Shown here: in pieces, positions 1-48,046 of the stretch
Numbering within the stretch: the stretch's first letter is position 1
Layout of the letters: every line of letters begins with the position of its first letter
NCBI RefSeq assembly: GCF_000003605.2
Contig: NW_003142304.1
Location: 674,453 to 722,498, forward strand
Length of the DNA stretch: 48,046 nucleotides
Reading direction: 5' to 3'
DNA from: Saccoglossus kowalevskii
Taxonomy: Eukaryota > Hemichordata > Enteropneusta > Harrimaniidae
Made by a program: the position numbers and the translations under genes
The notes under the pieces: generated by a model
The model's input: only the letters and a program-made list of their open reading frames with translations
Told to the model about the DNA's origin: nothing
The model's database searches: none

Positions 1-543
1 TTTTTTAATTTATGAGTAGGCTCTACTTAAAGAAATGAGATATATGCACAAACACTCTCGAACGTGCATCAAAACTCGTATGCACTTTTCCTTTTATGCA
101 TACTATAGATACTTTAAGTGTTTTAAAGTGGGGACTAGCTCATAAACTTTATATGTTTTTCATAGTAAACAGTGAAAATATTTTATCATGAAACAGTAGT
201 GTTGTTATGTGAACAATTTGTGATTTTAACGTGAAGTAAAACATTCTATATGTTTAATTATAAAACAGCGATTTTAAAGTGAGGCATACACTATGTTAAA
301 TTTTAAAACACTCAGATTTTCAGTGTACTGGACCATTACGGGTAACAATCATTATCTGTGCTGGTTTAGAATAAGTTGGCAATAATTTCCATGTGTAATG
401 GAGTTAAGATTCAGGGTCATGAATAATATCCACATTAATCCCCTAATGATTCGTTGACCATTTCATCTTTACTAAAAAAAAAACGAATTCGCTGATATCT
501 TAGATGACACCTATATGTTAACCTTTATCCGTTTTTTTAACAG

Positions 544-749
544 ATGGATACATAATTTTAGTGATGAGAGAGGTGCACTGGAATATTGTGTGCGATAAAC
601 TTCAAGAAGTAATCCAAGACTTAAAAGTGAGGAAAATGGTGTCAGACATGCATGTGGACTCAGTCCCAGAATATCACATCGCTACCGAGTACAGCCCAAG
701 TGCCATTCCTGGAATAATAGTAGTCATCAAAGTTTCGAAACATGACTAA
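544..749 (+). CDS. Terminal coding exon of a gene entering from the left; possible METTL27-like methyltransferase end
   Basis: A strong splice acceptor (pyrimidine run ending in TTTTTTTAACAG at 533-543) opens a frame of 67 residues plus stop at 747-749, entered in phase 1. Seen: the segment starts GYIILVMREVHW, continues with an amphipathic stretch (DKLQEVIQDLKV) and ends VPEY...IPGIIVVIKV. Known: class I SAM-dependent methyltransferases of the METTL27/WBSCR27 type end with a hydrophobic strand, a helix, and a final strand pair with a VP-aromatic motif. Inferred: this is the last part of such an enzyme. No SAM-binding motif lies in the window because the upstream exons are missing, so the family call is weak while the exon call is stronger. 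A possible poly(A) signal lies near 1138. Confidence 0.5.
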
Positions 750-1268
750 CACAATGTAGTTGATAGAAAGACAAATACTTACTAATCAGAATGTCCGTAC
801 CGATGTCACCAGTGGCGTTTGCTTACTCGTAATACTCGTGCTTGAAATTACGCCCTCTAGTGATATAACCTGCATTTCCCAACATGTTATAATCACGCCC
901 TCTGCTGGTTGGATTTCTACACGTAATAAGAATCACACTATTCGTTCACGTCTCGGCTTGCAAAACCAGCATGACAGGGGTGGTTCTTTTGTGGCGTCTC
1001 GCACATATTTATTATAATTTTAAGTTACGTTCATTATTAAAATACAATTACACATTGTGGATTTTCTGTATTTTTCTCACGTGGTGTATGGATTTCTAAA
1101 TAACCATGTATTTATTTAAACTAAATTGTCATCATTATAATAAAATCTTAATAAAATTTTAATAAGTCGGTGCATTATTAAATTGACTTCTTGTTTTCTT
1201 TTGCCTAAAGCGATTCTTATTTATGTATTTAATATTGCCGTATAATTAAAGCTTGGCAATTATAACTA
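750..1268. other. Non-coding stretch after the left-hand gene
   Basis: Probable 3' UTR and spacer of the exon ending at 749. It holds two short CGCCCTCT-type segments (about 850 and 896) resembling MITE ends and an A+T-rich tract at 1017-1250 with AATAAA near 1138. The 85-codon open frame at 760-1017 shows no protein-like features. Confidence 0.4.
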
Positions 1269-1594
1269 TCCTCGGGGGCGGACATCCGGGCATTTTCACC
1301 GCCTGGCAACCCGCGGCGGTGAAAACAAAGGCCCAAAACTCGCAGAAAACGGTACTTTGGGGTGATTGTGGAGACTCCTCTGAACAGTGCAACAAGATTA
1401 GCCCTACGTGTGTAACATATATAAATTTGATTGTTCGGGATTACTTCAAAGTTGAGTTTGTATTGTTTTCTCGAATTTTCACCGGCTCGACCGGCGTTCC
1501 ACAGCAGCGCGCACAGAGCCCATAGAAATGCATGGTACAGTGGTGCGCGTCTTAGCAACGTGGAACGTCTGTGACGTAGCTCCGCCCCCGAGGA
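1269..1594. mobile_element. 326-bp MITE with 14-bp perfect terminal inverted repeats (family M1, copy 1)
   Basis: The element begins tcctcgggggcgga and ends with its exact reverse complement. It is non-coding: the open frames across it on both strands are chance. Further copies lie at 38386-38700 (opposite orientation) and 47060-47365. Inside, a second inverted motif (CATTTTCACCGCC near the left end, CACCGGCTCGACCGG near the right) is conserved among copies. No clear target-site duplication is visible. Confidence 0.85.
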
Positions 1595-2626
1595 TTGGTC
1601 TAATAGACATGACTTTGAATCTTCATGTCTGTTGTTGCTCATTTTATCTATGTACATATTAATTTCGATTCATTTTTGACGCCATGACAACCATATATGT
1701 TTTGTTACACGCGGACATTGCGTTTTATTTTAATGTTTTACATTTTTGCACTTTTGTTTCATGCCTTGTATTTATCCTGAAAACAATTTCTGAACACTCT
1801 TCCGTAACTTTGTAACACAAAGTTTCTTACAATTGGTAATGAACAGGCGTTACGGAAAAGCCGAGGTTAAGCTTGTGTTGTACGTGACGTGTGTGGCCTA
1901 TTGATACATTGTTGTAACGAAATCTACAAACCTTTACTATCGTATTTTGATATAGAAGATGCGTGTTAATTTCTCTTACGTCATATAACAACTTTGCGTT
2001 ATTTCAGAAATTTACATTTGTTTATTAGGTTGTCACAATAATAAATACAAGATTGAAACAGATACATCGTTGTTAAACTGTCTGCTAATTGAAGAGTTTT
2101 AATGTGCTTTTTTGAAAACTTGTATTACACGGTGTCATTATAGAAATGACACAAGTCGCAAAAATATCATTAACCATTCCCGAACTCAAATGACTTTCAT
2201 CATTTGAACTGAAAAAGTAGAGATTCTAGCAATATTATAATATAAGAAACGATCAGAAATCTTAATGATTTTATTTGTTTACATGTTTTGTCTTGGTTGT
2301 GATAATCCCGGCCAGTCAGTCGCAATTAACGCGATAATTTGTTATTTAAGTGTCTGAAATCTCAATGTATGGTGACTGTATGACATGGTTACCGTGAGAA
2401 AATTAACGCAGTAAGGGTTATTTTAATTAGAAAAAATCCACGCGAGTGCCTGTAATGGAGGAACGTATTAAACCTTTCAGTTATTAAAAATAACGTTGGC
2501 AGATTTTGTTTGTTTTTAAATCCGTATCAACTCGATATATCCCACTTTTTGCAGTTTGGGTATTTTTAGAATATATAGACAGCTGTTGGAAAATAGAAAT
2601 TGTAATAAAAAATATAACCAGAGACT
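1595..2626. other. No recognisable feature
   Basis: A+T-rich spacer with no supported exon, RNA gene or repeat of its own. Confidence 0.4.
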
Positions 2627-3010
2627 GTAAAAGCTGGTCCCAAGGGGCTGTGCACGGATGGTATTATAACAGAAGTACATGGGGTAAAATACAAAGATGT
2701 GGTATTAATAGATGCATTGTGAGCAAACACGGCGTTGAGTGAAATAAACGACAAAATGGCGTCTGTGAGGAGAAAAGAAAATCCTCTATCCTCCAACCGA
2801 AATGACGGAAAGTTCAACAAAAAGAACAGAACTGAATCCTCCAAGCCTGACTCCTTAATCCAATAGTTACTAGACAAAGGATTAACACAGCTGATTTCTG
2901 TACAGGCTTGTCAATTGAAATAAAAATAATTGAAAACGCCTATTCACTCAATACCAGCTTATGGGGGCTTAAATCGACAAAATTAAAGCAATTTGTTGGA
3001 AAACGCAGCT
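2627..3010 (+). repeat. Dispersed repeat R1, copy A, carrying a 36-codon ORF
   Basis: About 380 bp that reappears in reverse orientation at 31675-32070 with high identity. Both copies contain an ATG-to-TAG frame of identical length (here 2756-2866) encoding a short basic, polar peptide starting MASVRRKEN. Similarity fades just outside these limits. No terminal inverted repeats were seen, so it could be the 5' part of a retroelement (UTR plus the start of a gag-like ORF) or a non-autonomous derivative. The peptide matches no family I recognise. Confidence 0.75.
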
Positions 3011-4854
3011 TAGCTTGCAAAGCAGTGTTGCTACATATGTGCAACAAAAATAACAAACTTTGGATATTTGTTATTATGAATAGTTTACCTTGAATGAAAT
3101 ATATGTTAGTAAGCACATGGCGATGCATATGTTCCTCTGCAGCACCGTCTGGTGTGTACAGTGAAAATGAAAACACGTTTTTATAAACTATTTAACACGC
3201 GGATTAATACACAGAAGATAAAACCCAAGACTGAACATTTCATTAAATTTGCATTGTTTTCGTTGTTCCCGTGCAGGTTCAGTCAATGTCATGTGATGTT
3301 AACCTTTCGTTGTCCCCGTCGTCAAACTAGTACAACAGTGTGTTGCCATTTGTTGTGAATACGTGTTCTAAATTTTAACTGCAGAGATTTCGGTTGACAC
3401 ATTAATATAGCTATATATATATATATATAATATTTGTACTAATGTGAACGATACGAAAAGGTACGAGGTTACGGCGATGACAAGACAGACCAAGTTTGCA
3501 CACAAACCAGTATGTGATCGCATATACTCGTGGTAGTAACATTATTAGTTGAAACTTTCTTATATTGGTATAATCGCTTGCTATCTAAAGGACAGAGCAA
3601 TGTGATGAAAGCTAACCGTGGTAATATCTTATTATTGTTCCTTATTTGAAAATACCATTTTCTGATAAGATGGAAAAAATGTGTCCGCATCTTGGAAATA
3701 TCCCATCATCGAATCGATCTTTATTTTAAATTCACATTTCATATTAATGTACACTGGTACAGAAACCAGACGCTGCGCTGAAACTTTTGTAAACTCGCTG
3801 TAAGATGATCTTTACATAAAAGTTGTAAAATGGATTTTGTAGAAAAGATACAACTATAACAGTTCATGTTAAAAGCGGAAGACGTCATAGTCATTTGTAT
3901 AATTATCAATTATAAGTTTACAAACGCTATCCTCGTCATAAATACAAATATCAATTTCAAATACGAATATTCTGCACTAGAACTTAGAAGGTTCGTTTGC
4001 AATTTTTATTTTGTTTATTGTATTTTGATAATAATATGAGAAAATGAGTTTTAAAATGATCTGAAATTCAGGCATTCCCTAAACGTTACTAAGCATACAT
4101 CACATGACTGCTTAATGTAGGCGAATGTGGTATTGCATATACAGTATCAATGTTTGACAGCCAATTTCGTTGGTTGAAGAGTCCAAAGACAACTTTACGC
4201 TACACGAAGTTACCGGTTCCACGTTAATTCTGGGGTGTTGCTTTTCAGTTTTTCCGTTTTTCGAGACAACGTACTTGTAACTTTAACTGTTTTAATTTTC
4301 AGTCCGTCAAAACTGTCCAACGAATTGTCAGTAGTTTGATGATAGCTGCAAGATACGAAGGCGGATAAAGACAAAAAAATGAATACAATGTTCCGGTCAT
4401 TCAATGCAATTCGCAGGTCATTCACATGACTGTAGTATTGAGAACAGTGTTTCCAATAGTCGGAATAGTCGAAAATAACAATATTGTCGCGTCAGAAAAT
4501 CCACTTGATAAACATGGTACAGAATATGAACTACCGTATTTGCCTATTCTAAGTTTTCAGATGATGTACAGGTTGTTATAGTAGCATTCTTATAATTAGT
4601 AACATTTAGAGAATCAGATATCGATTGTAACTTCGAGTCGTTTTTTCTTGTTGCTACCTTAAGCGTTAATATATCTAATGACCATATATGGAAAACAGTA
4701 ATGCATAATCATTCGCCAAATTTGCATGTCATTATTCATTGGGAAATTTGTTTACCGACTTAGTCACAGATACTTGGGCAATTTAATGTAAAAACAACTA
4801 AATATAGAAATATGATTCACTAACATACATCACCCACAAAAGCTTAAACAATGC
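3011..4854. other. Spacer with a TA microsatellite
   Basis: Holds a TA dinucleotide run at about 3411-3429 and A+T-rich unique sequence. The open frames here (60-75 codons) lack splice context or protein-like composition. Confidence 0.4.
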
Positions 4855-5250
4855 GGTAAAGACTTTCCGTTTCGACATTGTGGAATTCTTTCATTTTTAT
4901 GCAGAAAATACAGTATTTTTACCAAGTAAAATCATATTTATTGAAGTTATTGTTCATACATGAGTTGTCGAACACACTACATAGTTTGTAATTTCATTAA
5001 GCGTATTTCAGTCACAATTTAAGACAAATAAAAAGCAAAAAATCGAGAATATAGCAAATTATCTTTTTTTCTGTAATATTCTTCTGTAGTCGGTAATTAT
5101 GAAAGTTATTCATGGGTGCATAGGGTATATATTTCGCTGTGTATTATTCATACTATATTTCTGAATTATCTTGCCAAAATCAGTTTTTTTTAAAGTATTT
5201 TCTCCCAAAAATGAAAGACTTTCACAATGTCAAAAACGGATAGTCTTTAT
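4855..5250. mobile_element. Inverted-repeat element, family M4 copy 1
   Basis: Begins GGTAAAGACTTTCCGTTTCG and ends with a diverged reverse complement (ACAATGTCAAAAACGGATAG then TCTTTAT), giving terminal inverted repeats of about 35 bp around an A+T-rich, non-coding interior. A second copy lies at 34979-35322. The ends resemble those of Tc1/mariner-type MITEs, but no transposase is present and the target duplication is unclear. Confidence 0.7.
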
Positions 5251-5302
5251 CGTAGTGTTCTATGAAAGATTACAACTAGTATCATGTGAAACTAATTTGA
5301 TG

Positions 5303-5304
5303 TT

Positions 5305-5344
<40 letters not shown>

Positions 5345-5345
5345 G
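5303..5345. repeat. (GTT)n microsatellite
   Basis: An uninterrupted run of about 13-14 GTT units; it explains the poly-leucine open frame that covers it. Confidence 0.95.
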
Positions 5346-7456
5346 TAAAGTAATTCATATTTCAAAAACTTTATCATTGATATCTTCAATTTTTCCCAGC
5401 TTTGATTGAACTATTTCTATTTATTTCACATTACCAGCCGTGTTTGAAAATAAGCGATGATTGACTGATTCAACGACTACTAATACGTTATTCAAGTTAT
5501 GCATTTGTTTCCAGTCCACTGGGCGATGATGCGTATTTTCTTTGTATGACATGCGATATATAGATAATAACACGCGTAATAATGGCGCCGTGCCACTTCA
5601 CTGATGATTGAGATATCGTGTTCATGAAAATTACTCAAGATGTTGATTCCTTTATTCATATTTGAATGCATTTTATTTTTTCTGTTTCTACATTGGCATT
5701 GTGCCAATAATCTCATAATTTTATCATTCAGAACAGGTAGGGTTATCAGTCCATCTAATGACACGACTTCATAGTTGAGAATTACAGTATAAGTTACAAC
5801 TCAGTCCGAACCGCAGCGAATGTAATCCGCATAATATACGCAATGAGGTTCCTCGCTACTAGTATATTGCTATACCTATATCAATGTATACTGCTGTCAA
5901 AAGAACAATTTTTTTTTTCAAAACTCTGATTGTTGACGGTAAAGTAGCCTTGATAGGTTTAAATGAAAACTGTTTTACCACTTAGTTGTTGTTAACCACA
6001 AACACACTCCAACAATCCACATCCGATTGCCGCTAAATTAGTTGAATTCGCGGCTCAGTGCAGGCACCACCCTTTGTGCTGGCTCGCTTCTCGGCGTGCC
6101 GGTTTACGTATAATAGCGCCTAGCGGATATTATGTTGTATTGAATGTAGAAAATTAAAATAACAACCGATAACTACTGCAAGGCCAGAATTATTGTGTAG
6201 ATAGTATCGCAATATATTGCCACAGTTGCTATGTCAACAGTTCGATGTTCACTAAAGTTGATGTAGTAAGAAAGTAGTGTTTCGATTTAAAGCTAAAATA
6301 CAAATAATCGCTCTGTTATTGTACTGCGCTGTTTCATTGTATATTTTTAAAAATATTACTGTATCACGGAGCAATTGATTTTTAAAACGGCGTTCTCGTC
6401 TGTACATGTTGTCCGACAGTAACATTTATCATGAGCTGTCAACTGACATTATGTTGTTATCTGTATTAGCGGCCCAATCGACACAATTCAAATAAACCAT
6501 TGGCAATTATAATGTTTTCCAGATTTATTGGGACCGGGAATCGAATATTCACCTCCGATAATTAATCTAGCAGCGAGGAGAATATTTCCAACACGTATTA
6601 TTTTAATGACGTCATCGGGCACAAAATACCACGTGACACATAAAGTTACAATCGTAATTATAACAGTGACGCAGGTATCACGTGTCCACAAACCGAATTA
6701 TATGTAGCACACAGTCGTAAATAGTGATGTGTGTTTTATTTATTGCGTTATTGACAACTTGCTTCCACGGCTATAATGATGGTATTTCATTGTTTTACCG
6801 ACGTTGTAGCTTGTAAATGGTCAGTGGTGCATGACGTCATGTGACGTCACAGAATACCTCTGAACATAAATGCCTTTGGCTTTGTGGGAGAAAACACGTG
6901 GAACTAATGCATGATGGATATTTGAAGATGGCCAAACTTTTCGTAAAAATCATGATCAAATCTCCAAATAGTGTGAGCGATCTTTGCTATGTTCTACTGT
7001 ATGTTTCAATAAGATATTGAATATAATTACAGAGGCATTTTTGATACCTGGACAAGTTAAGGTTGAAATTTAACCAATCAGCTTAGACTTATTTCCGTCG
7101 ACTTATTCTTAAACCCAAACGGAAAACAGTGATAATCTTGCTTTTTTAAGTGCCGACCCCGCCCTTAAAAGCGTCTTACTTGTATTATGGTAAGGTGTTT
7201 TCAACGCTTCAATGACGAAGATCTGTCGCTCCATTCATAGTGCTAAAACACCAGTGTTGTCTTACGTTGTAAAACAAAACACAAACTTAAAACGCTATTT
7301 AGGGATATGACATGGGACGGCAATGTCAGATTATGGTGATATCCAATCTGACACTCTCTGTGGTCCGGCGTCGATCCTCGAAATAGAATTATACAATCGT
7401 GAATAAAAATACATGGATGCATGTATATGTAATCGTTTCATGTGAGGTCATAGCCT
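5346..7456. other. Gene-poor spacer with clustered CRE-type palindromes
   Basis: No supported exon. It contains TGACGTCA at 6607-6614, 6832-6839 and 6842-6849, and CACGTG near 6632, 6680 and 6895. That is an unusual concentration for 300 bp and possibly regulatory. No TATA box or gene start can be assigned. Confidence 0.35.
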
Positions 7457-8832: not shown

Positions 8833-10624
8833 AGTTGTGATACATATAATGATTAACAATCAAAGAATGAAAATATTAATAATGTTCATATTTCTGTCAT
8901 ATTTATTCCCACTTTACACGTGACAGGGCTTATTATAATCAACTGGTGGCTGGAATACACTTGTATTTACATGATACCAATTATAACTACCATTTATTTC
9001 GTCTTGTTAAATAGTTGTACATAGTTATCCTCGCTATTAAAGAACACCGCATATATATAACGTTACTCCGATCGTGAGAAAACTATAAAGGCCCCTGTTA
9101 TTTTGAACTTTAATGTTATTTCAACATGAGTAGTCGTTAATTAGGTGGATTGGGAATAATGTATCACGTGTCTGCTATTGATATACCTATGCACCTTAGA
9201 TCTAAGGTTTGTGGTATAATTGTTAACAGTATGCATCGGCGCATTAGATGCAATAATAACGATGTAGCTACGATAAATGAAAACTTGGAAGAAACCAATT
9301 GGGGTGAACTAATGCGCAAATTACGTTTTTGTTTCATCCAGTTTTTTTATCGATATACCCTTTTCTATAGCTTTCCGTGTAGATGTTTTATTTAATTTGT
9401 TTCTGTGTTGTTTAATTTATTTCAATTCCACCACCTTAGACTTTCTATGGTCAATTCCTCACCTGTGAGAAACATGTGGAAATGCTGTGGATATAAGCAT
9501 GCGGTGATTCTTATTGTTTAGCAGCACTTCAGTGGTAAACTGGAACAAGATTTTGCGTCATCGCCGTTTTCAACAAATTCAATGCGTTGGATCTTATTTC
9601 CTTCCAACAATGAAACAATTATTTTTTTTCTAATGGGGCCCGGGTCAAAGCTTTGGCTCCAGTAAGACTTACATTTTATACTGAAGGTAAAAATAAAATA
9701 GTGTTTAACGCAAAACGTTTCGGGATCACTCCACAGCTATCACGCAATTGTTTTATTTTTTGTCTATTTTGCCCATGCGCAGTATAAACAAATCACACCT
9801 ACTGGTGCTAGTCTTGTGTCTGTCTCTGAGTTACTGAGTTCGTATGATTCAAGATAACAATTATAAAACAGTATGCCTGTGACACGCATATACGCCTTCC
9901 CCTCTCTGAGCGTGTTCGCTCACACAATTCACACATGGTCAGGATCATAACAGCGTCTAATCACGCAAAGTGTCATAATGCAAACGTTTAAAGATATTTG
10001 ATTATTGAAATACATAAATTGAAGATTTTTTGGGAGCAAATTTCATTATCATTCGATGATTCAATAAATCAGTTTGGTTCGCAAATTTGTTACGTGCTGG
10101 TTTGTATTCAAGAATAATTTAATATACTGTCTTAGACTGGTGCGTACGTGTCTATTGGCCACGTCATCGACTCTAATATTATTGATTTTCAATTACTGCC
10201 ATGCTTCGTATGCAGATACTTTCGAATTACGACTAACAAATGTATTACATATTTATTACAAATATGTAGGTTAATATAATTTGACTTATAGTTGTGAGAA
10301 GATGTCAGTTTCAGTCTATTTTACGTCACTGCTAATTGATTTCCCGTGCTTCGATTTGTCAAATTATATTCCTCAGTGTTGAAATCGATTTGTGACGTCA
10401 TCTTCGTTATTGTCAATATTGATCTTCAACTGGATCCAATTGTTGAAAATTGTCATTCCTTATTCGATTGCATCCATAACGAGTGGGTCTCACTCTTCGG
10501 TGTTTCCCGTATTCTTGTGTTTGTGTTGCCGGATATTTTGTTCCACGATTGTAAATGACTGAAATTATTTGCAAATTACTACAGAATTGTGTTCATCAAG
10601 AATGAACGTTTTCATACTGTGGAT
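8833..10624. other. No recognisable gene
   Basis: Unique A+T-rich spacer. A single TGACGTCA lies at 10393-10400. The open frames at 9150-9395, 10074-10274 and 10346-10558 lack splice sites and family resemblance. Confidence 0.35.
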
Positions 10625-12401: not shown

Positions 12402-18004
<5,603 letters not shown>

Positions 18005-18015
18005 TTTCGGGGATA

Positions 18016-21000
18016 CTGAAATAAAAAATATATATTAATAGTAAAATACCAAAAAACAATATAGTAATACTTCCTAAATTGAATGAATGAAAAATAAATA
18101 AACCATACAGGATTGTTTTTTCGTTCAAAGAATAACTCAAATGTTTTAAATGGAAGCTTGTGGTGTACACCAATCCTCTTTACCGCCCGAACTGACGTTT
18201 GTGCGAACAGATCCAGGTATCTAACTGTCAAATGTCTCGGTTGGCCCGCCCCCACGGAATATATGAGTAGTATCCGTGATTAGAAAAAGGTGTAGATTTA
18301 ATAGATTTATAAGATCCACTCGACAAAGGCTTTTATTCGAATCCGATTAACTTTAAACACAGGTGTGGAGAAACAAACTGAATTAAAAAAAATGCACTGA
18401 AAATTGTACTTTCACAAACCGGACTAAGATATCGTATTACACTAAAGACATTAGGGTAATTGCTGTTTTGGTGTGTCCATTTCACGTGAAACATACCTAA
18501 GAGGTAGAATGTGTATATGCTAAATTAATTTTATGTTAAAATCGTATTAAGCACGTTGTACTTCCCCCTTGAGAATTACTACGTTTAACCCGACATCAGC
18601 AGAGTGGTTGTTTATTAAATTGTCCGCATTATATGTGTGCTATCCGGGGACGTGCTAGATTAGCGTACTTGGTATGTTTGGAATCAATTTCCCATAGCGA
18701 GAAATCCCCTATATGGAAATAAACGAACTCAACTGTTTTAATGTGTTGTTCCTTTGTCCGAAATCTCACGAGTCGTAGATTCTGCTTCATCATTTGCCAT
18801 ACTAAATATGTTCCCGTTAACTTTTATCTTTTGGACTGTCTCCCGGACTGAAGGACTTCGATTAAATCGGTCCACATCAGACTAACATTGAATTATCTAC
18901 TTTATCGAGATCAACCCGTAACTGCATTGCATTTTTAACAAGAATTGAAACTTAAAACTGTTCATGTAACACTATTATTATAACGTTCCACCATATTTTA
19001 ACCTTCTTACCAGCGTTTATTTTTTCCTTTCTTAGGGGGGGGAGGGGGGTTCTAAGCTGTGATGTACAACATGAAACGTTTAGGATAGAGTCACCGAGTG
19101 AGAAAGTGCGAATAAAACACAGCATTTCCAACTTATACTCTGTCTAGTAACGTAGCTACTAGTGTACATGGCATGCTGCCCGATCTCCATCATCAATATG
19201 GACGTGGATACCTAACATTCAAGAATATCTTGGTACATTTTGTTTCAAAGTACAAATGTTTCATATTGTGAGCAATCAATCGTTCAATGCTAAGTTGAGC
19301 GATTCCATAATTTGTTGGGCTGGGAGATTGCTCGAGGACGACGAGCAAATCACATTTGCACAATGATTGTATACTAGTATGTACATTGCGTTATGTAATG
19401 TGAAAAACAAAATATTCACAAAACACGATTTTGTCTTTTCTTTGTCCATAGTTCCCTATAAGATTATGGCTGTGTCACGAGTGATTACATTAAGACTCGG
19501 TGACTGATAATTAGTTAGTGGATATGGGTGGTGTTTACGGTAAACAGGAAATAATAACGGTCTAATAAAAAAGAAACTTTACCGCCACATATCGCAAATA
19601 ACGTCATAGTTCAATGTCAGCACGGTTAAAACGATTACACGATGTATCGGTAAATCATTTTTTTTTTTATGAATTTGAAGAAAACGAAATCATCCGACGC
19701 TCAATACATGTGTGAAAACGATATAAATATGCGCCATACGTGTTGACATCTTTTTGACGCAAGTTTCTAAATTCTTTTAATTGTGAAACGGGGAGGGGGC
19801 CTCTTCAATCTGACACTCTATGTGTGAAAAAAGCTAACGATTTGCCTCATATTTGTTGACACTTATAGACGATTTATCTAAATCCATTTACGGAGCCGGG
19901 AAGGGTTCTTTTTTTCCATCTAGAAATATCGCTCAATACTCCGCATTACACTCGTCCGGTTGACTATTTGTTGATACAATGTTTACATTAGACACAACAG
20001 CGATCTTAATGTCTTTGAAAAAAATGCAATTAGACCATTCCCGCATTTTCCATCTAACTAACTAAAACAGCGTTCGATTGAAAGGAACAAAACATATTGA
20101 GCAGGTAGGCAGGTAAAAAAAAACAAAAACAAATATTGGCGCTGTTTTGGTCGATGCTAAGATGGTAGGGTGAATTAAAGCAAAGCCATTATAAATGCCC
20201 TTAATACAGATTTATATTTAATTTGGTCTCATATTGTTCCTTTACTATGCGTTCTCGGAGTTTTTCATATCCTCGGTGTCTGTTGATTCATTGTTAGCAA
20301 ACGGAAAGAAAACATACAAGCTTGTGTGAAACCCTCTCATGTGATCGATATAGCTTAATATAAAGTATACCTATCCATACTGCGCTGACACTGTAACAAT
20401 AACAAAATGACTACATCGATCTGCCGCCCGAGATGATGTTTGTTGTATAGTAGCAATTTGTTGCAATTAAGCTACCAGCGTCTATACGTATGCGAGGGTG
20501 ACGTCCAAGTTCAAATACTCACTGAAAGATAAACTATTATGACTTTGGGGTAATTGGTTGCTAATGGCATCGATGTCAGATATCAGATGAGGACTTAGCC
20601 ACTCGAATACACGTGTGATACTGCGGGAGCAACGGAGATAGTCGGGTTGGCAATTTCCAAACTCTATAGCATTTTAATAGTATGTATTTCAAATGTTCGG
20701 GAAAACGGTCCCATACCCGTCGGCCTCAAGTCCCTGCTTCTGTATGTTAAAGCAATGCCTAGAAGCTCATGTAGCTGGTTTCAATAAAGTTAGTATGCCC
20801 CCATTTCTCTTCTGATAACTGAGTGCAATTATGGTTTCAGAATGCCATCTAGGAACCTTCATACGACATTCAATCGACCCAAACATGGAGATATTGCTAC
20901 ACATTCCTTGGTCGAATCAATAATAGTTGTGAGTTATTTCAATTTTTAATCCAGGTTTTCACGAAAATCACGATTCTTGAGTTTTATTTACATGTGGACA

Positions 21001-38385: not shown

Positions 38386-38700
38386 ACTCGGGGCGGAGCT
38401 ACGTCACAAGACGTTCCACGTTGCTAAGACGCGTACCATTGTGCATGCATTTCTATGGGTTCTGTGCGCGCTGCTGTGGAAAGCCGGTCGAGCCGGTGAA
38501 AATTCGAGAAAACAACACAAACTCAACTTTAAAGTAATCCTAAACAACCAAATTTATATATGTTACACACGTAGGGCTAATCTTGTTCAGGGGAGTCTCA
38601 ACAACCATCCCAAAGTACCGTTTTCTGCGAGTTTTTGGCCTTTGTTTTCACCGCGAGGGTTGCCAGGCAGTGAAAATGCCCGGATGTCCGCCCCCGGGGA
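38386..38700. mobile_element. MITE family M1, copy 2 (reverse orientation)
   Basis: ACTCGGGGCGGAGCTACGTC at the left and CGGATGTCCGCCCCCGGGGA at the right, the reverse of copy 1 at 1269-1594. It lies about 400 bp past the stop of the GCM-family gene. Confidence 0.85.
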
Positions 38701-38743
38701 TAAGATACGTGTATAACGTGATGTCCAGCGTCACACATTTCCT

Positions 38744-39106: not shown

Positions 39107-39603
39107 TCAAACTTTGTATGGATGAAACAACTTTAAATAATTTAGGTTGTTGCTGGTGCGTCTGATTGGCCCAATCTGGTTGTCGTTTCTATGGTGATTG
39201 GAATACAAGGTGGCTAGGAGCGTGTTATGTAGAACAGGGTTGTACGTAATCAGCGATGGTAGTATTGGTGTCACGGAATACGGGAACGATGATGACATCG
39301 GTACATTGGACGGTCTGTGGGGCATGTGTTGTTGTACTGACAGAACCGCATCTTTTGACTGCAGTGGTAACCTAGGTGACGACATCGGTTGAGCTGCCCC
39401 AGGAAGCAAGAAAGCAGGGCACGACTTACGGCGGTGGTGTTGAAACTGCGGGAGTAAATGCGGGAAACTGAACCGATTTGTCAGCGATGTTTCTGGTTTG
39501 TTGAGACATTGCGCCGATGTTGACGTCGGGGACGTACTATGAGTGGGTCTGTGGAAGGCTGATCGCATCAACGCGTCTTCTCCTAAACCAAATTTTGTAA
39601 AAC
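39107..39603 (-). CDS. GCM-family gene last exon (Ser/Pro/His-rich tail)
   Basis: The acceptor TTGCTTACTTGCAG is strong and the frame runs 164 residues to TAA at 39109-39107. The sequence is rich in Ser, Pro, His and Leu (for example [13 protein letters not shown]), which fits a disordered activation tail. No canonical AATAAA was seen within about 200 bp downstream. Confidence 0.85.
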
Positions 39604-42600
39604 CTGCAAGTAAGCAAGAAACGCTCATTTTGAATTGCGCCACCAACGACCTTTTTTACTATGAAAAAGGCAATTAGCATTACCGGTGGTATATGCAAAA
39701 AGGGCGTAAGTTTTAATATTGTTGCTTGATAGTGTAGCACGCAACTAGGTATTCGTTTAATGTAATAATTATATTTTTAATGTATTGGTCGTTTTGAACG
39801 TACATGCACAATGTAGGTGTTATTTTTTAACAAATCGACTGTTGACGGCGCTGCTCAAAGAAACAGAAATGACTTTTCAAGTGTATTTACCCATGTATGT
39901 AACCATCTTAAGAACTATCCGGTGTTAACGTTGTGGTATTTATTGAAGGTAAAGTATTATAGAAGCAACAAGCCCCAGATCTCCGCTTTTCGCTTAAAAA
40001 TGCCTTGACTTACCCGCCAAGTTTTAATTTATTTGAATTTGTCAGAACATATAAATCGTATTGTATACAACTACACGAAAAACTTGTACGACCAATACAC
40101 GTCCGTCAACCTATTAAACGGGGGAGTCGTCACCTACGCATGCGTCAGCTGGCCATATCGTGTCGTTGTTAACAAACAACCGTTCACCCATGAGCCTTTG
40201 CGTTCTTAGCGTGTGTTGTTATCGTCGCTTGGGATCCTCCCGCTTTGACAAAGACGACGAAATGAACATATAGAATTATGTGAAACAGCTACCTTGTTCT
40301 GTCGCTGTTTTCAGTGATTTCAGAAACTCTATCGCTGGTCCTTCCGTAGTTTGCTTTATGTCGTTTCTTGCTGCCGGCTCTGTTCGACAAACATCACACC
40401 CACATCTATTGGCACTGTCCTTATCTGAGCCGTCTGCAAAATAGATAGTTTGGTATTACACTAAATCACTTGGTCACGTGACAACGTTGAGCTACGCAAT
40501 ATATAAAGATGTAACAGGGACGAAAGCATGTCTGACGTGACTATGATGCATATCAATCACAGTTGTGACGTTTAGTGTGAAATATCACTAGGTGACATGC
40601 TGTGGTAAACGTCACAATATTCACGCTAAACGTCATCATTTCACGCATCTACACGGAGAAAAAATCGCGCAGTTGTACCACATTTGTTATAGCAACGCAA
40701 TAGTATCAGTCTGGATAACAATTACTCGAACAATTATTTCGAATATAAACATATGATTCGTTAAGCGTAGTGTAATTACGATTTACCTTTAGTTTTTTGG
40801 TTCGTGAATAATACTAAATTATGACGTCACTCGTATTTGCCGGTTCTATGAATATCAGGGAAGTACCTAACATGTGACAGTTCGGAGTGTCCTAACTCCA
40901 GAAAAATCGTAAAAATTGTACTACGCTCACGAATCAAATGCTAATTTATGCTAATTGTATTATGATTTAAGGTTAAATACAACAAATGCTGTTTATGCGT
41001 CACACACGTGGCAACACTACCAGCATTCGGAAAATGGAAACACAAATACGCATGCGCAGTAATTGCTATTGTACGTACAAGACCAATCAGCGCATGCGCA
41101 TCAGAAAATGTCATTGTTCCATCGAACTAAAATTCAAATTACTACATGTACAAAACATCGTTCATGATAAATCACTGCTCAGTGTATTCATCGTATACAC
41201 TATCAAACAGCACTAATCATAAATCTACCCGTTTTCGTTTATATTGCATCAACAAAACTGAATAAATTATACAAAAATATCATACAAGTTTATGGTAATG
41301 TTTACACGTGGCACATACTTTGAAAGGTAAAAACACTCACATAAAACAATTCATACTGCACAAATATTCAGCGAATTTCTCACCGATACATTCTGGATTC
41401 TGTGATTTCAAACACTGTATGATGTTGTTTAACCCTTCTTTCAGAGGGAGGCGACGGAACGACAACCTGAAACCAGCTAATGTAGCCTTGGCAACCCCAC
41501 CATCATCTGTCATCTCACTATTCATCTTATATGCATCGAATATTGCCATGGCAACTGGAAATACTTTGCAGGATGCGAGTTCGTTTCCCCAGTACATCCA
41601 AAATTCATTGATGATGGGTGGACCAAGAGACGGATCCTAGAATGAATAGAACCAAACACTGTAGTGATAAAAAACATACTGTCACGTGACCATAACATAT
41701 TACGTCGTGTGTATTACTGTAGTTCATAACAAATGAAGGTCATTTCGACATTGTAACAAGAACAAAATAGGCACCAGTGATTTCAGAAACAATTCGCCGT
41801 CACAGACAACCAGTGTTAACAGTTTGTCAACCTAGTTTGCAGAGCTTTGATTCATTTTGCTGTTGACGAACAGAAGAGATACTATACGTGAAACCTATCA
41901 ACTGAACTAAATTAGTAACACCCAACTGTCATTATGATTGCTAGGACTTTATGTTAGTAATTCCATTGGTATGACTGGTAAAATTATGAGTTATTAACTC
42001 CATCCTGTCATTACTATTGGTGAGCCTATGAAATATTAACTCCAACCTATCATTACTATTGGTGAGCCTATGAAATATTAACTCCATCTTGTCATTCCGA
42101 TTGGTGGAATCAAGAGTTTTTAAATCCGACCTATCATTATGATTGGTGAAACTATGAGATATTAACTCCCACCTATCATTATTATTAGTAAAACTACCAG
42201 TTATTAACTCCAACCTATCATTACGATTGTTGAAACTATGAGATATTAACTCCAACATGTCATTACGATTGGTAAAACTATGAGTTAATCACTCCAATCT
42301 GGCATAAAAGGAAGAACCAATATTTTCAAATGTGTTATAACACACTCAGTGCTTATTGTCTGAGTATTACGATGCTTATTTCAATAGCGGACATTTTTGT
42401 TTGGCATCCTGTACCAGTGTTAGCTTGACAGCATATACTATGAAAGTTATTTTTTGTTCTAAACAGTTTTTTGTACCAAATATTGCCCGTTTACTAGAAA
42501 ATGACTGGTTCACGCTTGATAACTGGCCACAATTACGAGTAAACAAACTGTTTTTTTTGCTGAAAGAGCTGGCTGGAGCCGAAGAGCTCCAATAAAATGC

Positions 42601-45600
42601 TGTCGTGTAAACGTAGCAAATATGTAACTTTCAGTTTGAAGTTTATAATTTATAATACCGTGGATTTAAGACTACTTAAATAATCACCATGACGACTAAT
42701 TACTTACTCTCAAGATGATATCAGCACGTTTAAAATCATAAGCACTGCATTTTGTAGAGGTCATGTGATCCAGTAATGCGATGAACCTCGCCGAATCTTG
42801 TTCTGGTAGTTTGGATCCAACCTCGTTCAAGGCAATATAAAAGTATTCATGGAAGCTTTTTAAACTTGGTAGAATCATGGTGTCCTGGCAATAAATATCA
42901 AACAACGAAGTGTAATAAATATATGTATTAATATGTGAGATAATTTAGCATCATATAATCGCAGATTTTGATAGTTCAATGACTCAAATATCAATATAAT
43001 ATCACCTTCAACATCTGAATAATGTCAGCCACGTTTCGATCAGCAAATGTTTTCGTCAGATGATCACGTTGTAAATCCAATATAGTCTCTGCGCATGCTT
43101 GGATGACTTGGTCTCGGTCAGTTGGTTTCAGATCGGCAACTAAAGTCTATCAAGAAATGACACGCACAGTGATATAATTGTTCAGTACGTGGTAGGGATG
43201 TATACGAAACATACTTTTGACACATGAATTTTCTGAAATGTTGTTCCACGTGACCCGCTAGTTGTCGAATTGTGAGCGATAATTGTACGTATTTTGGTAT
43301 ATGCTCAATTTAAAATGGCCGCTAGTTCAACTTTTTAAGAAAATCATAAGTACCCCTTCTTTTTTCGCTCTTTGCAATTTTTTTGGAGGAATCTTCCACT
43401 CAGCAATATATTTGACGTGTCTGCCTTATTCTTCACGGTTGAATGCATATCATTTAACTATTAACTGTTATGATTGGCAGAGTTGGACACATTGTTGATC
43501 TAACGGTGTGTAGTGTGAAGTGCATACTCATCCGAGTTTCAGACTTCATAATGTCCAAAAAAGCATAATGACGTCATTGACATATTTCACTGAAGAAATA
43601 TAATCGTTGAGTTTTTTGATGTGCACGTTTATATAAATAGTTTATCACTTGGGAAGCATGGTCAGCACATCATGCCCCGGCATTGATATTTTGTTGGTCG
43701 TCCATGGTGCAATGCGTATATTGGAAATACCCCACCAGCGGTGAGAGTTACTATTCACGAGTATAAAAATATGTTTTTCGAGTTCATGTCTAAGCCCAAG
43801 TTATCGTTCTTGCATATATCTTAATAAAATGGACAAATATTTTACATACCGGCAGGTGACAACATGCGAAGTGCGCTGTTGGGTCGAATAACATTTTGAT
43901 GAGGCTTGCAAAATGGCGTCGGAGACCTTCCGTTGTACCTTGTTGCCACAATGTAAGTTGTACTATAGACATGCACGACCTGTTGATTTGTTGACAGCAA
44001 GAAAATTAAATTAGTTTTTATTTACAATTTCCAAATAATTTATTCGGATGTGTTTCTGGTGATTGACAAAATAGTCTCCAAACCTTTGAAAATTTGGTGC
44101 CATGGTGATTATGGTATGGAATCCCTCAATCAACTCCAAGTTGTCATCGCATAGCAACACCGGCGTCACGTGATACGCACGAGGTAAGCCTTCTCTGATT
44201 TGCATTTGTTTTAATACGTCCACCATAAAAGGGAAGGCCAATGTGATGTGTTGTTTTTCTGGCTTGATTGAAAATGATTTAATTGCCTGCAGTGGAAAAG
44301 GAAATGATGTAATATATACTTTGAATATTCGGGTCGCATAATACTGTGGAAGAATGTATCTAGAAATTATGAAACGCCACCAACGACGGCGGTCACGGTA
44401 GCTGAAGAACAGTGAAACATATACCAGTATATAGTATATAGTATCACGACCGGATGAATATGTATTCTTACTTGCTGCACATTATCGGGCAGACATCCAA
44501 TTGCATCCATTGTCAATATATTCTTAACTGTAGATTCGTTTCCCTTAATCCTTTCTTGTGGTTCACGTCTTTGTCTTGGGCGAGTAACTTTGGTTTGGGC
44601 CTAGACAAAATAAATGATAATTAATACGCCTTAGTGTAATAACATTATTCTACTTCCGAAATCGACATGTTATGTTTGTTGCGCAGGTACCATTAGCAGA
44701 AACTCCAACTGAACGATTTAGGGATGGACCGATTAATACATCTTCACAATAAATCGCGCCCCTAGCGACGAGGCTCGTCTATGAGGTAAATGGGTAACAC
44801 GAAGGCCGTTCAAATCGTCTATATCGTTTTGATCTGTAGCCGTTCATCGGTAAAGATTGTGTTTTTGAGAGATTTTATTATATTCTAGATGATGAAAGAC
44901 TAAACGATCAAACTCAATCTGAATGTCGATATGAACGACATTGCTTTCGCCTTCATGCGTAATTTTGACGTCATAAAAGCACTCTGTCACTAGAGGGCGC
45001 GATTTATATAAATGTTGTATTCTTTATTCTGAATGGCAAATCATAAATAAGTTCCCCACCAATCTTAGTTCCGCTTCAAATACCATTGCAGGATCTATTC
45101 CTAATTCTAGCATCTCGTTCGGTATTCTTCTGGTGTCTGGCCGCGGGTGGTCGTGGATACCACGTGACTCAAATGCAATGACGTCTGATTGGTCGCTCCA
45201 CAGATGCACCACGGGAAATCCATTGTTCCCACGGCACCTATTTATGAACAGTGACGTATATTTAATTATGCGGGTATGATAAAAAACGGAGTGATATCAA
45301 AAATAGAACATATTTCTCATATTCATACACTTACTTGTTGTGTATCATTACTCCCTTACAATTTGGATTAGAGCAGGGTTTTCCGATCTGTTTTTCTCGT
45401 ACTTTATCGGAAATTGCTGGTCGGATGGCAATCGGCGTCAAATCGCACTCTCGTCTATCTTCGGTAATGTTCGGATCTGCCGAACACTTGCTGCAGACGA
45501 TAACTCCGATGCAAGCTTTTTTCAGGACGTACTTGTTGTGGTTGTTAGTGTATTTCATGGCCCAGCCTACAGTACGATAAAAAAGGATCTATCATATATT

Positions 45601-47792
45601 TTTACCTGGCCATAGTCGGGAATTTTCTATTCAACTTCGGAATATGTTGAAAACATGAACAAATGATTATCGTCAGCCTCACGTGTAAATCAAGCAAACC
45701 ACCGTTTTTCTTGTAATCTTGCTGATTCCATTGAACCGGCAACTACGATGAAGTATGTTCAAACGCCCGATGAATGTGTATGTGTACTTCACGGCACTTT
45801 ATCAACGTCTGATATGGGAGTGTAGCATTCATTTTATAACTAACAAGGTAATATGATTCTGCGATTCATGGTAATGGGAAAATGCATTGTGAAGCCAATA
45901 GAATAAATGGACGTGTCTGACAACAGGTCATATTCAAGTTGGCACGTTTAAACCAAAATGAAGACAAAAATTCTTTCCAGCTCCAAAAAAACATCTTCCC
46001 ATCCGATTCCAATCTTATTCAAGTAAGGAATCTAGTTGAACCTACGCCGTGTTTTGAGAATATTTTAAAAGTTATTTACTGAAAATAATAATAAAAGCGA
46101 CAAATCGGAATAATTGACCGTTGATGGCTCATAATATTCATTTATTCAGAACGTTCTTGCATCATTAGCTGAAAATCAAAGAAAACAATACAAACAATAA
46201 CACAGACGAATGAGCGCGATAGGAGTAAAACGCACATTATTATATATATACTCGAATCAATTTGAAATTTGTGTTGTCAAAGCATTAAAGCGGTGGAGTC
46301 GTCACCTGCGCATGCGCCAGATGGACATAGCGTGTTATTGTTTACAAGCAAACGTCTACCCATGAGCCTTTGCGTTTTTAGCGTGTGTTATTATCATGGC
46401 TTGGGAATCAATTCCCGCGCGTGCGCAGGTGGCGATCATCCCGCTTTAAGCGCAATTGACAGCACACCTCACCCATCAAACATAAAAGTAGACAAAGTTA
46501 CGTCCTGGCTAATATTGCCATGGTAATCACTCACCTGAAACGTGACCCTGTGCTTCCGGGTCAGTGGGTCGATAATTGCGTTTCACGTTCCCATTCGCCC
46601 ATTCATCAAAATCATCAAATTCTTTCCTCTAAAATAACAACAATTGAATTTTAATTACGTGAAATACTCTGTGACGTCAACGAGACGTAGATATGTGTCC
46701 AAATAAATAGTCAACTCATTTAAAATATACCAAGTCTTTAAAAACAAATAATTTATTGATGGACAATATTGACGATGTGAACGTTGCACTCATTTTTGCT
46801 ATATAAGCGCGTCAGTCATCGCTAGAGGGCGCAGTTTATAGTTACGGTTAATCACTCGATGATGAATGTCGTCAAAGTGCATTGAGAAAAAGAGATAACT
46901 CCATAAACTTCAGTTAAACATACCTTGTCGTGAACTAATTCAGTTTCATTGTCACTGTATTTCTCTGCATTACCAATGCGTGTTACGTCTAACCTGTAAG
47001 AAAAATGCCGGGATAAATGCGCCGCAGTTAGACCGTGAAGCCATGGTGGAGAATCCTATTCTCAGGCGCGGACATCCGGGCATTTTCACCGCCTGGCAAC
47101 CATCGCGATGAAAACAAAGGCCGAAAACTATCAGAAAATGGTACTTTGGATTAGTTGCTCAGACTCCCCTGAATAGTGTTAAAAGATTACGCCTGTATGT
47201 GCAATATAAATTTGGTGTTCAGGATTACTTCAAAGTTGAGTTTGTGCTGTTTTCTCGACTCTGGCTTCAACCGGCGCTCCACAGCATCCAGCGCAGGGCG
47301 CATAGAAAACCACGGTACAGTGATGCGCAGTAGAACGTCTTGTGACGTAGCTCCGCCCTCGAGGATTCGTAGTGGTTAGTCTGAACAACCCTATAGCACC
47401 ACATCTAACCAACGTGACGTCACACAAGGCAAGGGAAATAAGTCTAACATGTACCGCATGTGAGTACGGTTATATAGTTCCCAGTGTTATTTTTGTATAC
47501 TGTATGTTTGATCAAAGACAATAGAAATGTCTTTGGTTTGATATATTCAAATGAAATATTAATCATAGGTACACGATATCTAGCGGATTTGATGTCCGAC
47601 ATGAAACAGACCTCTCATGACCACTATGATAACAGACAACTTACCTTTCGTTGATTATAGATCCCAAGGCATCATTGAACGTAGAGAGCAAGTCACGGTG
47701 GTCATGTAACTGCCCATCTTTCATGTCTTTATTGACAGACGATAATTGAATATGCTCCGTTGCGTGAACTTTGATATCGTCATCTGATGCAT
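39107..47792 (-). CDS. GCM-domain protein with a long unrecognised C-terminal region (13 exons, 5' partial)
   Basis: Join of 47792-47645, 46993-46924, 46628-46535, 45566-45335, 45237-45060, 44600-44472, 44286-44084, 43979-43850, 43146-43006, 42884-42708, 41636-41384, 40433-40293 and 39603-39107. That is 2393 bases, 797 residues, with matching phases at all twelve junctions. Seen: a GCM DNA-binding domain at about 74-220 ([49 protein letters not shown]). Then a basic linker ([14 protein letters not shown]), about 350 residues of helical-looking sequence, a CGCDVC exon and a Ser/Pro/His-rich tail. Known: GCM proteins are zinc-containing transcription factors (glial, placental, parathyroid and skeletal roles); vertebrate GCM1/2 are about 430-510 residues and lack this middle region. 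Inferred: a divergent GCM-family regulator. Least certain are the 45060 donor (GTGGGG) and the 44084/43979 junction. The entry codon at 47792 is split, so upstream exons are missing. Confidence 0.9.
40118..40250. mobile_element. MITE family M6, copy 1 (intronic)
   Basis: Starts beside TTAA (ACGGGGGAGTCGTCACC) and contains CCCATGAGCCTTTGCGTT. Its right end is degraded (CCTCCCGCTTTGA). A fuller relative is at 46284-46452. Confidence 0.65.
40293..40433 (-). CDS. GCM-family gene exon with CGCDVC motif
   Basis: Between ATTTTTGCAG and GAACAAG|GTAGC. It encodes [16 protein letters not shown] followed by an amphipathic helix ([10 protein letters not shown]). The three closely spaced cysteines could bind metal or form a small redox/zinc knuckle, but no family is recognised. 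Confidence 0.82.
41384..41636 (-). CDS. GCM-family gene exon (novel region, part 5)
   Basis: 253 bases, TTCATTCTAG to ATCG|GTGAGA, exit phase 1. It encodes [18 protein letters not shown] and [15 protein letters not shown]. The composition suggests a folded globular region. Confidence 0.88.
41950..42299. repeat. 42-bp minisatellite, about 8 diverged units
   Basis: TATTAACTCC recurs, exactly or with a few changes, every 42 bases (41992, 42034, 42076, about 42118, 42160, 42202, 42244, about 42286). The period is a multiple of three, so the minus strand reads as 14-residue repeats of the type (M/L)ELI.H..TN.NDR with no stop through seven units. Confidence 0.95.
42563..42622. repeat. Short repeat R2, copy 2
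   Basis: GGAGCCGAAGAGCTCCAATA then AAATGCTGTCGTGTAAACG. It is a shorter version of 35387-35460. Confidence 0.55.
42708..42884 (-). CDS. GCM-family gene exon (novel region, part 4)
   Basis: 59 codons, phase 0 to 0, between TTTATTGCCAG and TTGAGA|GTAAGT. It encodes [20 protein letters not shown] and further helical sequence. Confidence 0.88.
43006..43146 (-). CDS. GCM-family gene exon (novel region, part 3)
   Basis: 47 codons, phase 0 to 0, between CTTGATAG and TTGAAG|GTGAT. Strongly helical composition ([19 protein letters not shown]). Confidence 0.85.
43850..43979 (-). CDS. GCM-family gene exon (novel region, part 2)
   Basis: Acceptor ...CAAATCAACAG after a T-rich tract; donor CTGCCG|GTATGT. 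It encodes [20 protein letters not shown] and [13 protein letters not shown]. The start depends on the phase match with 44084. Confidence 0.72.
44084..44286 (-). CDS. GCM-family gene exon (novel region, part 1)
   Basis: The acceptor TTCCACTGCAG is strong. The frame includes [20 protein letters not shown] and [15 protein letters not shown]. The end at CAAAG|GTTTGG fits the next exon's phase. The frame stays open to a second donor (44026, AAATT|GTAAAT), which would end in phase 0. Confidence 0.75.
44472..44600 (-). CDS. GCM-family gene exon (basic linker)
   Basis: 43 codons, phase 0 to 0, between TTTGTCTAG and [25 protein letters not shown] could act as a nuclear-localisation signal. Confidence 0.85.
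44752..45004. mobile_element. 253-bp MITE with TA target site (family M5), in a GCM-family gene intron
   Basis: TA at 44750-44751 and 45005-45006 flank AATCGCGCCCCTAG ... CTAGAGGGCGCGATT, an inverted repeat of about 14-16 bp. TA target sites fit Tc1/mariner-type movement. It ends just 55 bases before the exon at 45060. Partial relatives lie at 38744-38880 and about 46800-46846. Confidence 0.8.
45060..45237 (-). CDS. GCM-family gene exon (end of GCM domain, zinc-ligand HDH)
   Basis: Starts with [13 protein letters not shown] and includes [15 protein letters not shown], the conserved Cys and His-x-His segment that helps bind zinc in GCM structures. The donor used here (TTG|GTGGGG) is weak. ATG|GTATTT, 27 bases upstream, is also in phase 0 and is the alternative. 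Confidence 0.93.
45335..45566 (-). CDS. GCM-family gene exon (GCM domain core)
   Basis: 232 bases from GTACTGTAG to CAACAA|GTAAGT. It contains [23 protein letters not shown] and [11 protein letters not shown], motifs diagnostic of GCM. Compared with the canonical domain there is an insertion of about ten residues after the VCSKC motif, and Ser replaces Cys in the PAICDKAR motif. Confidence 0.95.
46284..46452. mobile_element. TTAA-flanked MITE, family M6 copy 2 (intronic)
   Basis: TTAA then AGCGGTGGAGTCGTCACC at the left, and GGTGGCGATCATCCCGCT then TTAA at the right. The terminal inverted repeats are about 27 bp and include GCGCATGCGC-like palindromic sequence. The ends resemble family M2, suggesting mobilisation by the same kind of transposase. 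Confidence 0.75.
46535..46628 (-). CDS. GCM-family gene exon (start of GCM domain)
   Basis: Between TTATTTTAG and TCAG|GTGAGT. It encodes [20 protein letters not shown], matching the F-x-E-W-x-(D/N)-G-(H/N) start of GCM domains, and leaves in phase 1. Confidence 0.88.
46629..46923 (-). other. GCM-family gene intron
   Basis: Contains TGACGTCA at 46672-46679 and, at about 46800-46846, the right end of a family M5 MITE (CATCGCTAGAGGGCGCAGTT). Confidence 0.6.
46924..46993 (-). CDS. GCM-family gene exon (70 bp, pre-GCM linker)
   Basis: Between TTTCTTACAG and GACAAG|GTATG, exiting in phase 0. It encodes [18 protein letters not shown]... The canonical WDIND-type start of GCM domains is not present here. 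Confidence 0.8.
46994..47644 (-). other. GCM-family gene intron carrying an M1 MITE
   Basis: Contains M1 copy 3 (47060-47365), TGACGTCA at 47415-47422 and a weak CAAAGAC hairpin at about 47513. No coding sequence. Confidence 0.7.
47060..47365. mobile_element. MITE family M1, copy 3
   Basis: Same orientation as 1269-1594. The left end is mutated (TCTCAGGCGCGGACATCCGG) and the right end preserved (CTCCGCCCTCGAGGA). An internal deletion relative to copy 1 lies near the right end. Confidence 0.85.
47645..47792 (-). CDS. GCM-family gene, first exon in window
   Basis: Acceptor TTTATCCGCAACAG, entered in phase 1, leaving in phase 2 at GAAAG|GTAAG. It encodes an acidic, charged segment ([13 protein letters not shown]...ALGSIINE) with no domain. 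The ATG at the exon start is out of frame, so translation begins upstream. Confidence 0.8.
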
Positions 47793-48046
47793 CTGTTGCG
47801 GATAAAAACATAAGATGTGATGTACTTAAAATCGGCTACAGTTGGTGCTCATCAACACACAGTCAAGAGCGAGGTCTTATTTTGCATGCAAAGCAAATAG
47901 AAAATACAGAAATATAGGTCTTGAATATAAAACTTTTTTCTTGAAAAAAACAAAACGGAATGTGAACTTTTTATTAAAAACCCATTTTATTAACTCCAAA
48001 GTAGGGGTCACCCTAGTCTCTATGTCAAACTTATGTTATTTCGGAA

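Follow-up and report, generated by a model that had tools for sequence, protein, structure and literature searches.

GCM transcription factors set cell fates in several animals, among them those of glia and blood cells in flies, of the placenta and parathyroid in mammals, and of pigment cells in sea urchins, as far as the portions available of the relevant reports describe (PMC11193209, PMC3564725, PMC10396339). In the accessible parts of two further sources, the factors described consist of a DNA-binding domain with activation and turnover segments; fly Gcm and human GCM2 each have the DNA-binding domain, a nuclear localisation signal, one or two activation domains and a PEST segment, and human GCM2 additionally has inhibitory domains (PMC5209662, PMC8859918). 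We analysed a GCM-family gene on the minus strand of a 48,046-nucleotide stretch of the Saccoglossus kowalevskii genome (contig NW_003142304.1, positions 674,453 to 722,498; hereafter the window), in which a long additional region follows the GCM domain. The gene is real and belongs to a known family, in which it is somewhat unusual, and the special origins that a preliminary description had proposed for its additional region are not supported. On the sequence, we regard it as probably a diverged GCM transcription-factor paralogue, one of three found in the genome, the tail of which would now be a folded regulatory or partner-binding module.

The gene lies at 47811–39107 of the window, and its 13 exons join in one stop-free frame; exon structures throughout are predicted from sequence, and splice-site scores, in bits, derive from generic weights. 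Translation from an in-exon ATG at 47811 would yield 803 residues. If exon A starts at an acceptor at 47792 (6.4 bits), at least 797 residues are encoded, with more possible upstream, where N stands at 9,402 of 9,901 bases. The preliminary description, with 13 phase-consistent exons and at least 797 residues, is confirmed. Exon K most likely ends at 41384, where the best donor near its end that keeps phase with exon L is located (7.7 bits); a donor at 41357 scores 2.2 bits. A second in-phase donor of equal score (7.7 bits) occurs earlier in exon K, at 41501, and no extra small exon between K and L, spliced through a donor at 41341, was found at the thresholds used. Whole-protein searches of Pfam, PDB and PHROGs, the first search of NCBIfam, and the searches of prokaryote and virus contigs used the 41357 model, which is nine residues longer (812 in total); subsequent analyses used exon K ending at 41384. 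Rfam returned no match.

Membership of the GCM family is evident from the domain itself, since Pfam PF03615 matches residues 83–225 with an E of 2.1e-51 (174 bits against a curated cut-off of 25) and the mouse GCM1 structure 1odh matches with an E of 8.7e-36. A GCM-domain search of the genome assembly (572,110,611 bases, containing the window) gave five rows at three places, namely C2716 (E 1.2e-36 and 1.1e-24), which is the most typical GCM gene by score, C1263 (E 1.1e-26) and the window gene (E 5.7e-19 and 2.4e-10). C1263 holds, at 3–5866 of the stretch examined there, a third, divergent GCM gene with a domain that introns split in a way unlike both others; a TAA within its GCM match is most simply intron read-through. 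Over the aligned piece the window gene is 50% identical to mouse GCM1, 43% to C2716 and 46% to C1263, for which the piece is partial. The four sequences share 29 invariant columns, six of which, at positions 53, 93, 98, 107, 134 and 136 in the numbering of this piece, hold Cys or His; a Cys near 'VCSKC' of the window gene falls one column off relative to C2716 and mouse. Mouse GCM1 Arg62, described as a direct DNA contact in the part of the source available (PMC8859918), corresponds to Lys in the window gene and to Arg in C2716, and this position is not covered in C1263. The replacement is conservative and weakens only a claim of identical DNA contact.

The predicted intron preceding the GCM domain is in phase 0 and is placed identically in the window gene and C2716, and on the 3' side a phase-0 donor is predicted 26, 29 and 32 residues (hand-counted) past the HDHxRP motif in the window gene, C2716 and C1263 respectively. 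Because the domain is complete and is flanked on both sides by predicted introns like those of C2716, the more typical paralogue, we consider the window gene a true family member, not a stray domain. Predicted introns within the domain are placed differently among the three genes and the domain of the window gene is divergent, by which the paralogue appears old.

The extra region starts directly past the phase-0 intron 3' of the GCM domain, continues for approximately 344 residues, and is followed first by a Cys-rich exon and then by a tail rich in Ser and Pro. The reality of these downstream exons was examined with a script that chained exons from the exon E donor using only splice-site scores, phase and open frames, with site thresholds of 2.5 and 4.3 bits that were set just below the weakest sites of exons F–M and were the same for controls. 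The best minus-strand chain was exons F–M, comprising 1,726 open bases and departing from the gene model solely in a longer exon G (acceptor 44343, 4.8 bits versus 13.2). On the plus strand of the same region the best chain had 93 open bases; none of 100 dinucleotide shuffles reached 1,726 (maximum 993, median 240); and 12 control stretches of equal length from 14.0–35.4 kb gave 69 to 1,427, the second highest being 941. By eye, the control that reached 1,427 (14.0–20.4 kb, minus strand) contains the first coding exon of the neighbouring homeobox gene. Furthermore, exon M is open over 494 bases, compared with none of 4000 segments of 450 bases drawn from non-exon DNA between 39.0 and 48.0 kb. 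Exons F–M exceed chance, and the chain supports the earlier description of one continuous spliced frame with an extra region interrupted by introns.

In composition, residues 291–591 differ from the tails of other GCM genes. The hydrophobic residues FILMVWY make up 0.36 of them, against 0.29 of the C2716 tail and 0.24 of the C1263 tail (24–29% across three other tails), and PSTNGQ make up 0.28, whereas these six residues (Pro, Ser, Thr, Asn, Gly and Gln) account for as much as 0.46 of the long open tail exons both in C2716 and in C1263. This composition suggests a folded domain. None of these tail exons matched a Pfam family above cut-off, and C1263 gave two sub-threshold rotamase rows (E 0.007 and 0.03). 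When the window protein was compared by tblastn (E up to 10, default word size) with approximately 18 kb past the C2716 domain and 14 kb past the C1263 domain, the only matches besides GCM had an E of at least 2.6; a more permissive search with residues 248–640 alone gave many rows, the best with an E of 0.68. The extra region lies beyond the Pfam GCM model, and it was not found by tblastn downstream of either other domain.

We propose that the window protein would, like its family, bind a GCM-type DNA site and control transcription, with a DNA contact perhaps slightly altered by the Lys at the Arg62 position. Past the phase-0 intron, the low-complexity tail of the paralogues may have been replaced by, or joined by, a folded module of approximately 340 residues, and the composition and position of this module would fit a partner-binding or regulatory surface. 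A Cys-rich segment and then a short Ser/Pro tail would complete the protein.

Several observations weigh against this proposal. The GCM domain has a hydrophobic fraction of just 0.24, no richer than the floppy tails, and composition is for this reason weak evidence of folding. Structure models of single exons are of low confidence, with a mean predicted local distance difference test (pLDDT) score of 62.6 for exon G and 49.0 for exon K. These models contain strands as well as helices; the 'apparently folded helical' region of the preliminary description is apparently folded by its composition only, and its helical character is not established. Codon scores are weaker, mixed evidence for the exons: with leave-one-out training the true frame came first, alone or jointly, in nine of the 13 exons, but in B, C, K and M it was outscored by another frame (for exon M, 0.07 versus 0.21 for a reverse frame), and with training on GCM exons alone the true frame was best or tied in seven of 13 (A, B, D, G, I, J and K) and was the lowest of six in exon H. 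Third-position G+C is 42–50% in exons, 35% in exon L, and 37% overall in non-exon DNA. The extra region has no significant relative in Pfam, NCBIfam, PHROGs, PDB sequences, or prokaryote and virus contigs. Pfam was run on the whole region and on five overlapping pieces at E up to 10, with filters that drop most matches above approximately 0.1, and sub-threshold rows from Pfam and the other libraries were set aside (DUF2738, E 0.22 and 0.051; DUF4838, 0.27; phrog_31911, 0.016; PDB, 0.068–1.2). The prokaryote and virus contigs contained 16 and three pattern-matching stretches, none of which was confirmed by tblastn with a single-protein query, which finds close relatives only. Foldseek with the exon-G model, the low confidence of which makes the outcome uninformative, gave a PII-like structure as its best row (E 0.41), and none of 507 rows had an E of 0.001 or below; blastp detected no internal protein repeats. 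Lastly, reading through the end of exon E would add 11 residues, and a short GCM-only product would be possible.

The alternative that fares best is compatible with a diverged paralogue and bears on its novelty. The extra region might be an ordinary feature that GCM orthologues share in the clade to which the animal belongs, and there nothing out of the common, an explanation to which we attach a substantial, although minority, share of belief. Pfam models the GCM domain alone, and the apparent age of the paralogue is consistent with such a history; however, the region was not found at the C2716 and C1263 genes, and no title or abstract opening in the GCM literature searched names one. Nor is a GCM protein of this kind described in the sections available of PMC11193209, PMC10491807, PMC3564725, PMC10396339, PMC3521660, PMC5209662 and PMC8859918. 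A bolder form of the diverged-paralogue reading, in which the region would be a previously undescribed domain and the protein a GCM factor gated by a partner or ligand bound to its own tail, is rather unlikely; control of this type is not described in the parts of the GCM literature that we examined.

Exons F–M might instead belong to a separate gene on the same strand, downstream of a short GCM gene that ends after exon E. The exon E read-through (45023–45060) meets a stop immediately beyond 45027, which overlaps the AATAAA that begins at 45028, and exons F–K have no similarity to the tails of other GCM genes. Against this, the exon F acceptor is good (9.0 bits) and is in phase with the exon E donor (6.3 bits), 459 bases away; AATAAA is common here, occurring ten times on the minus strand between 38.0 and 47.9 kb; and C2716 and C1263 also have a predicted donor at about the place of the exon E donor. 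We judge two genes to be unlikely.

GCM-type zinc domains have been linked to transposase zinc fingers, and the preliminary description had suggested a domesticated transposase as the source of the extra region. Besides this link, one Pfam row below threshold, Ty5 Gag (E 0.066; 13.4 bits, cut-off 23.5), favours an origin from a transposable element, transposase or gag-like, but the unrelated DUF2738 scores as well, and the Pfam listing (E up to 10, with most matches above approximately 0.1 filtered out) contains no transposase family. In addition, none of the exons overlaps repeats detected inside the window, and a search of the 572-Mb genome with exons F–M (E up to 10) indicates a single copy of the extra region, as eight of the nine rows obtained were the gene itself and the ninth had an E of 9.3. 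The source copies of an ancient domestication might since have disappeared; nevertheless, we consider a transposable-element origin very improbable, and the suggestion is not supported.

A decayed 2H phosphoesterase (LigT-like) domain in part of the extra region is scarcely credible and is retained as a weak lead only. LigT_PEase is the sole Pfam row for pieces around residues 300–330 (E 0.089, 0.11 and 0.041) and, besides DUF2738, the one sub-threshold Pfam row to recur, the exon-G model (strand-helix-strand-strand) offers some resemblance, and one HxTLxF motif is alike in LigT (PF02834) and the extra region. However, these rows score 13–14.5 bits against a cut-off of 23.3, which is not significant; the second motif is not in form, the place of the second HxT reading HLPT by eye, and the first alone aligns; an hhalign comparison with four LigT sequences covers 15 columns at a probability of 1.8%, and one of 200 shuffles reaches its score; the 2H fold is absent among the best 50 of 507 Foldseek rows for the exon-G model; a PDB sequence search gave no match; and the reading was picked after the data had been seen.

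The preliminary description had also considered a ligand-binding-like module. A ligand-binding domain of the hormone-receptor (nuclear-receptor) type is not supported, no such family being present in the Pfam listing at E up to 10.

Table 1. Predicted exons of the GCM-family gene (window coordinates; splice-site scores in bits).
Feature	Position	Strand	Remarks
Exon A, acidic N-terminal segment	47645..47811	-	Donor 11.9; acceptor 6.4 at 47792; true start maybe upstream
Exon B, N-terminal linker	46924..46993	-	Acceptor 10.0, donor 9.0
Exon C, start of GCM domain	46535..46628	-	Predicted start position and phase match the C2716 GCM gene
Exon D, core of GCM domain	45335..45566	-	Pfam, 1odh and genome GCM matches
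Exon E, end of GCM domain and 26 residues to phase-0 intron	45060..45237	-	Donor 6.3
Exon F (residues 248-290), basic linker, then first part of extra region	44472..44600	-	Acceptor 9.0, donor 7.4; in chain
Exon G, extra region, residues 291-358	44084..44286	-	Acceptor 13.2, donor 4.4
Exon H, extra region	43850..43979	-	Acceptor 2.6, donor 8.5; in chain
Exon I, extra region	43006..43146	-	Acceptor 5.1, donor 6.4; in chain
Exon J, extra region	42708..42884	-	Acceptor 7.4, donor 6.5; in chain
Exon K (residues 508-591), last part of extra region	41384..41636	-	Acceptor 7.4, donor 7.7
Exon L, Cys-rich with CGCDVC	40293..40433	-	Acceptor 6.2, donor 6.1; symmetric phase 1-1
Exon M, Ser/Pro-rich tail and stop codon	39107..39603	-	Acceptor 11.8

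Repeated sequences occur in and around the gene. An interspersed repeat of approximately 320 bases is present at 1266–1599, 38387–38706 and 47053–47363 of the window, its copies being 77–91% identical, with one just beyond the 3' end of the GCM gene and one in the intron between exons A and B; by eye, a similar stretch is found at L008 5203–5619. A 131-base direct repeat pair (40105–40234 and 46276–46406; 84% identical) lies in introns of the GCM gene. The J–K intron contains a tandem array (41976–42297) with approximately 7.7 copies of a 42-base unit, and one frame of the minus strand is open through it. By eye, a CTAGAGGGCGC-like core recurs in short stretches at 38740, 44990 and 46820, in introns and flanking DNA.

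Elsewhere in the window, a paired-type homeobox gene is located at 12405–13795 on the minus strand, where two exons together encode the homeodomain (E 9.6e-15 and 0.0019) and an OAR motif is also present (E 2.2e-06). By eye it resembles Dmbx, perhaps with a matching N-terminal exon at 17807–18034. The 17,037-base mitochondrial contig C4830 carries COX1 (E 8.1e-142) in the reverse orientation to the majority of its protein genes, the others being named by eye, and its gene order is, by eye, like the common deuterostome order with COX1 inverted. Compared with human COX1, TGA is at Trp in 6/9, and ATA is at Ile in 5/9 and at Met in 1/9; neither AGA nor AGG is present within the alignment. Together these features would point to a deuterostome, perhaps a hemichordate.

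If the tail of this paralogue is indeed folded, the gene would show that at least one animal lineage has changed the protein partnerships of its GCM factors, and so large an orphan domain would be well suited to structure prediction as soon as relatives become available. Like mouse GCM1, the window gene has a complete GCM domain, with the CRG, GFPV and HDHPRP motifs and the invariant Cys and His residues. It differs from described GCM transcription factors in its length of at least 797 residues, approximately 340 of which are ordered-looking tail sequence.

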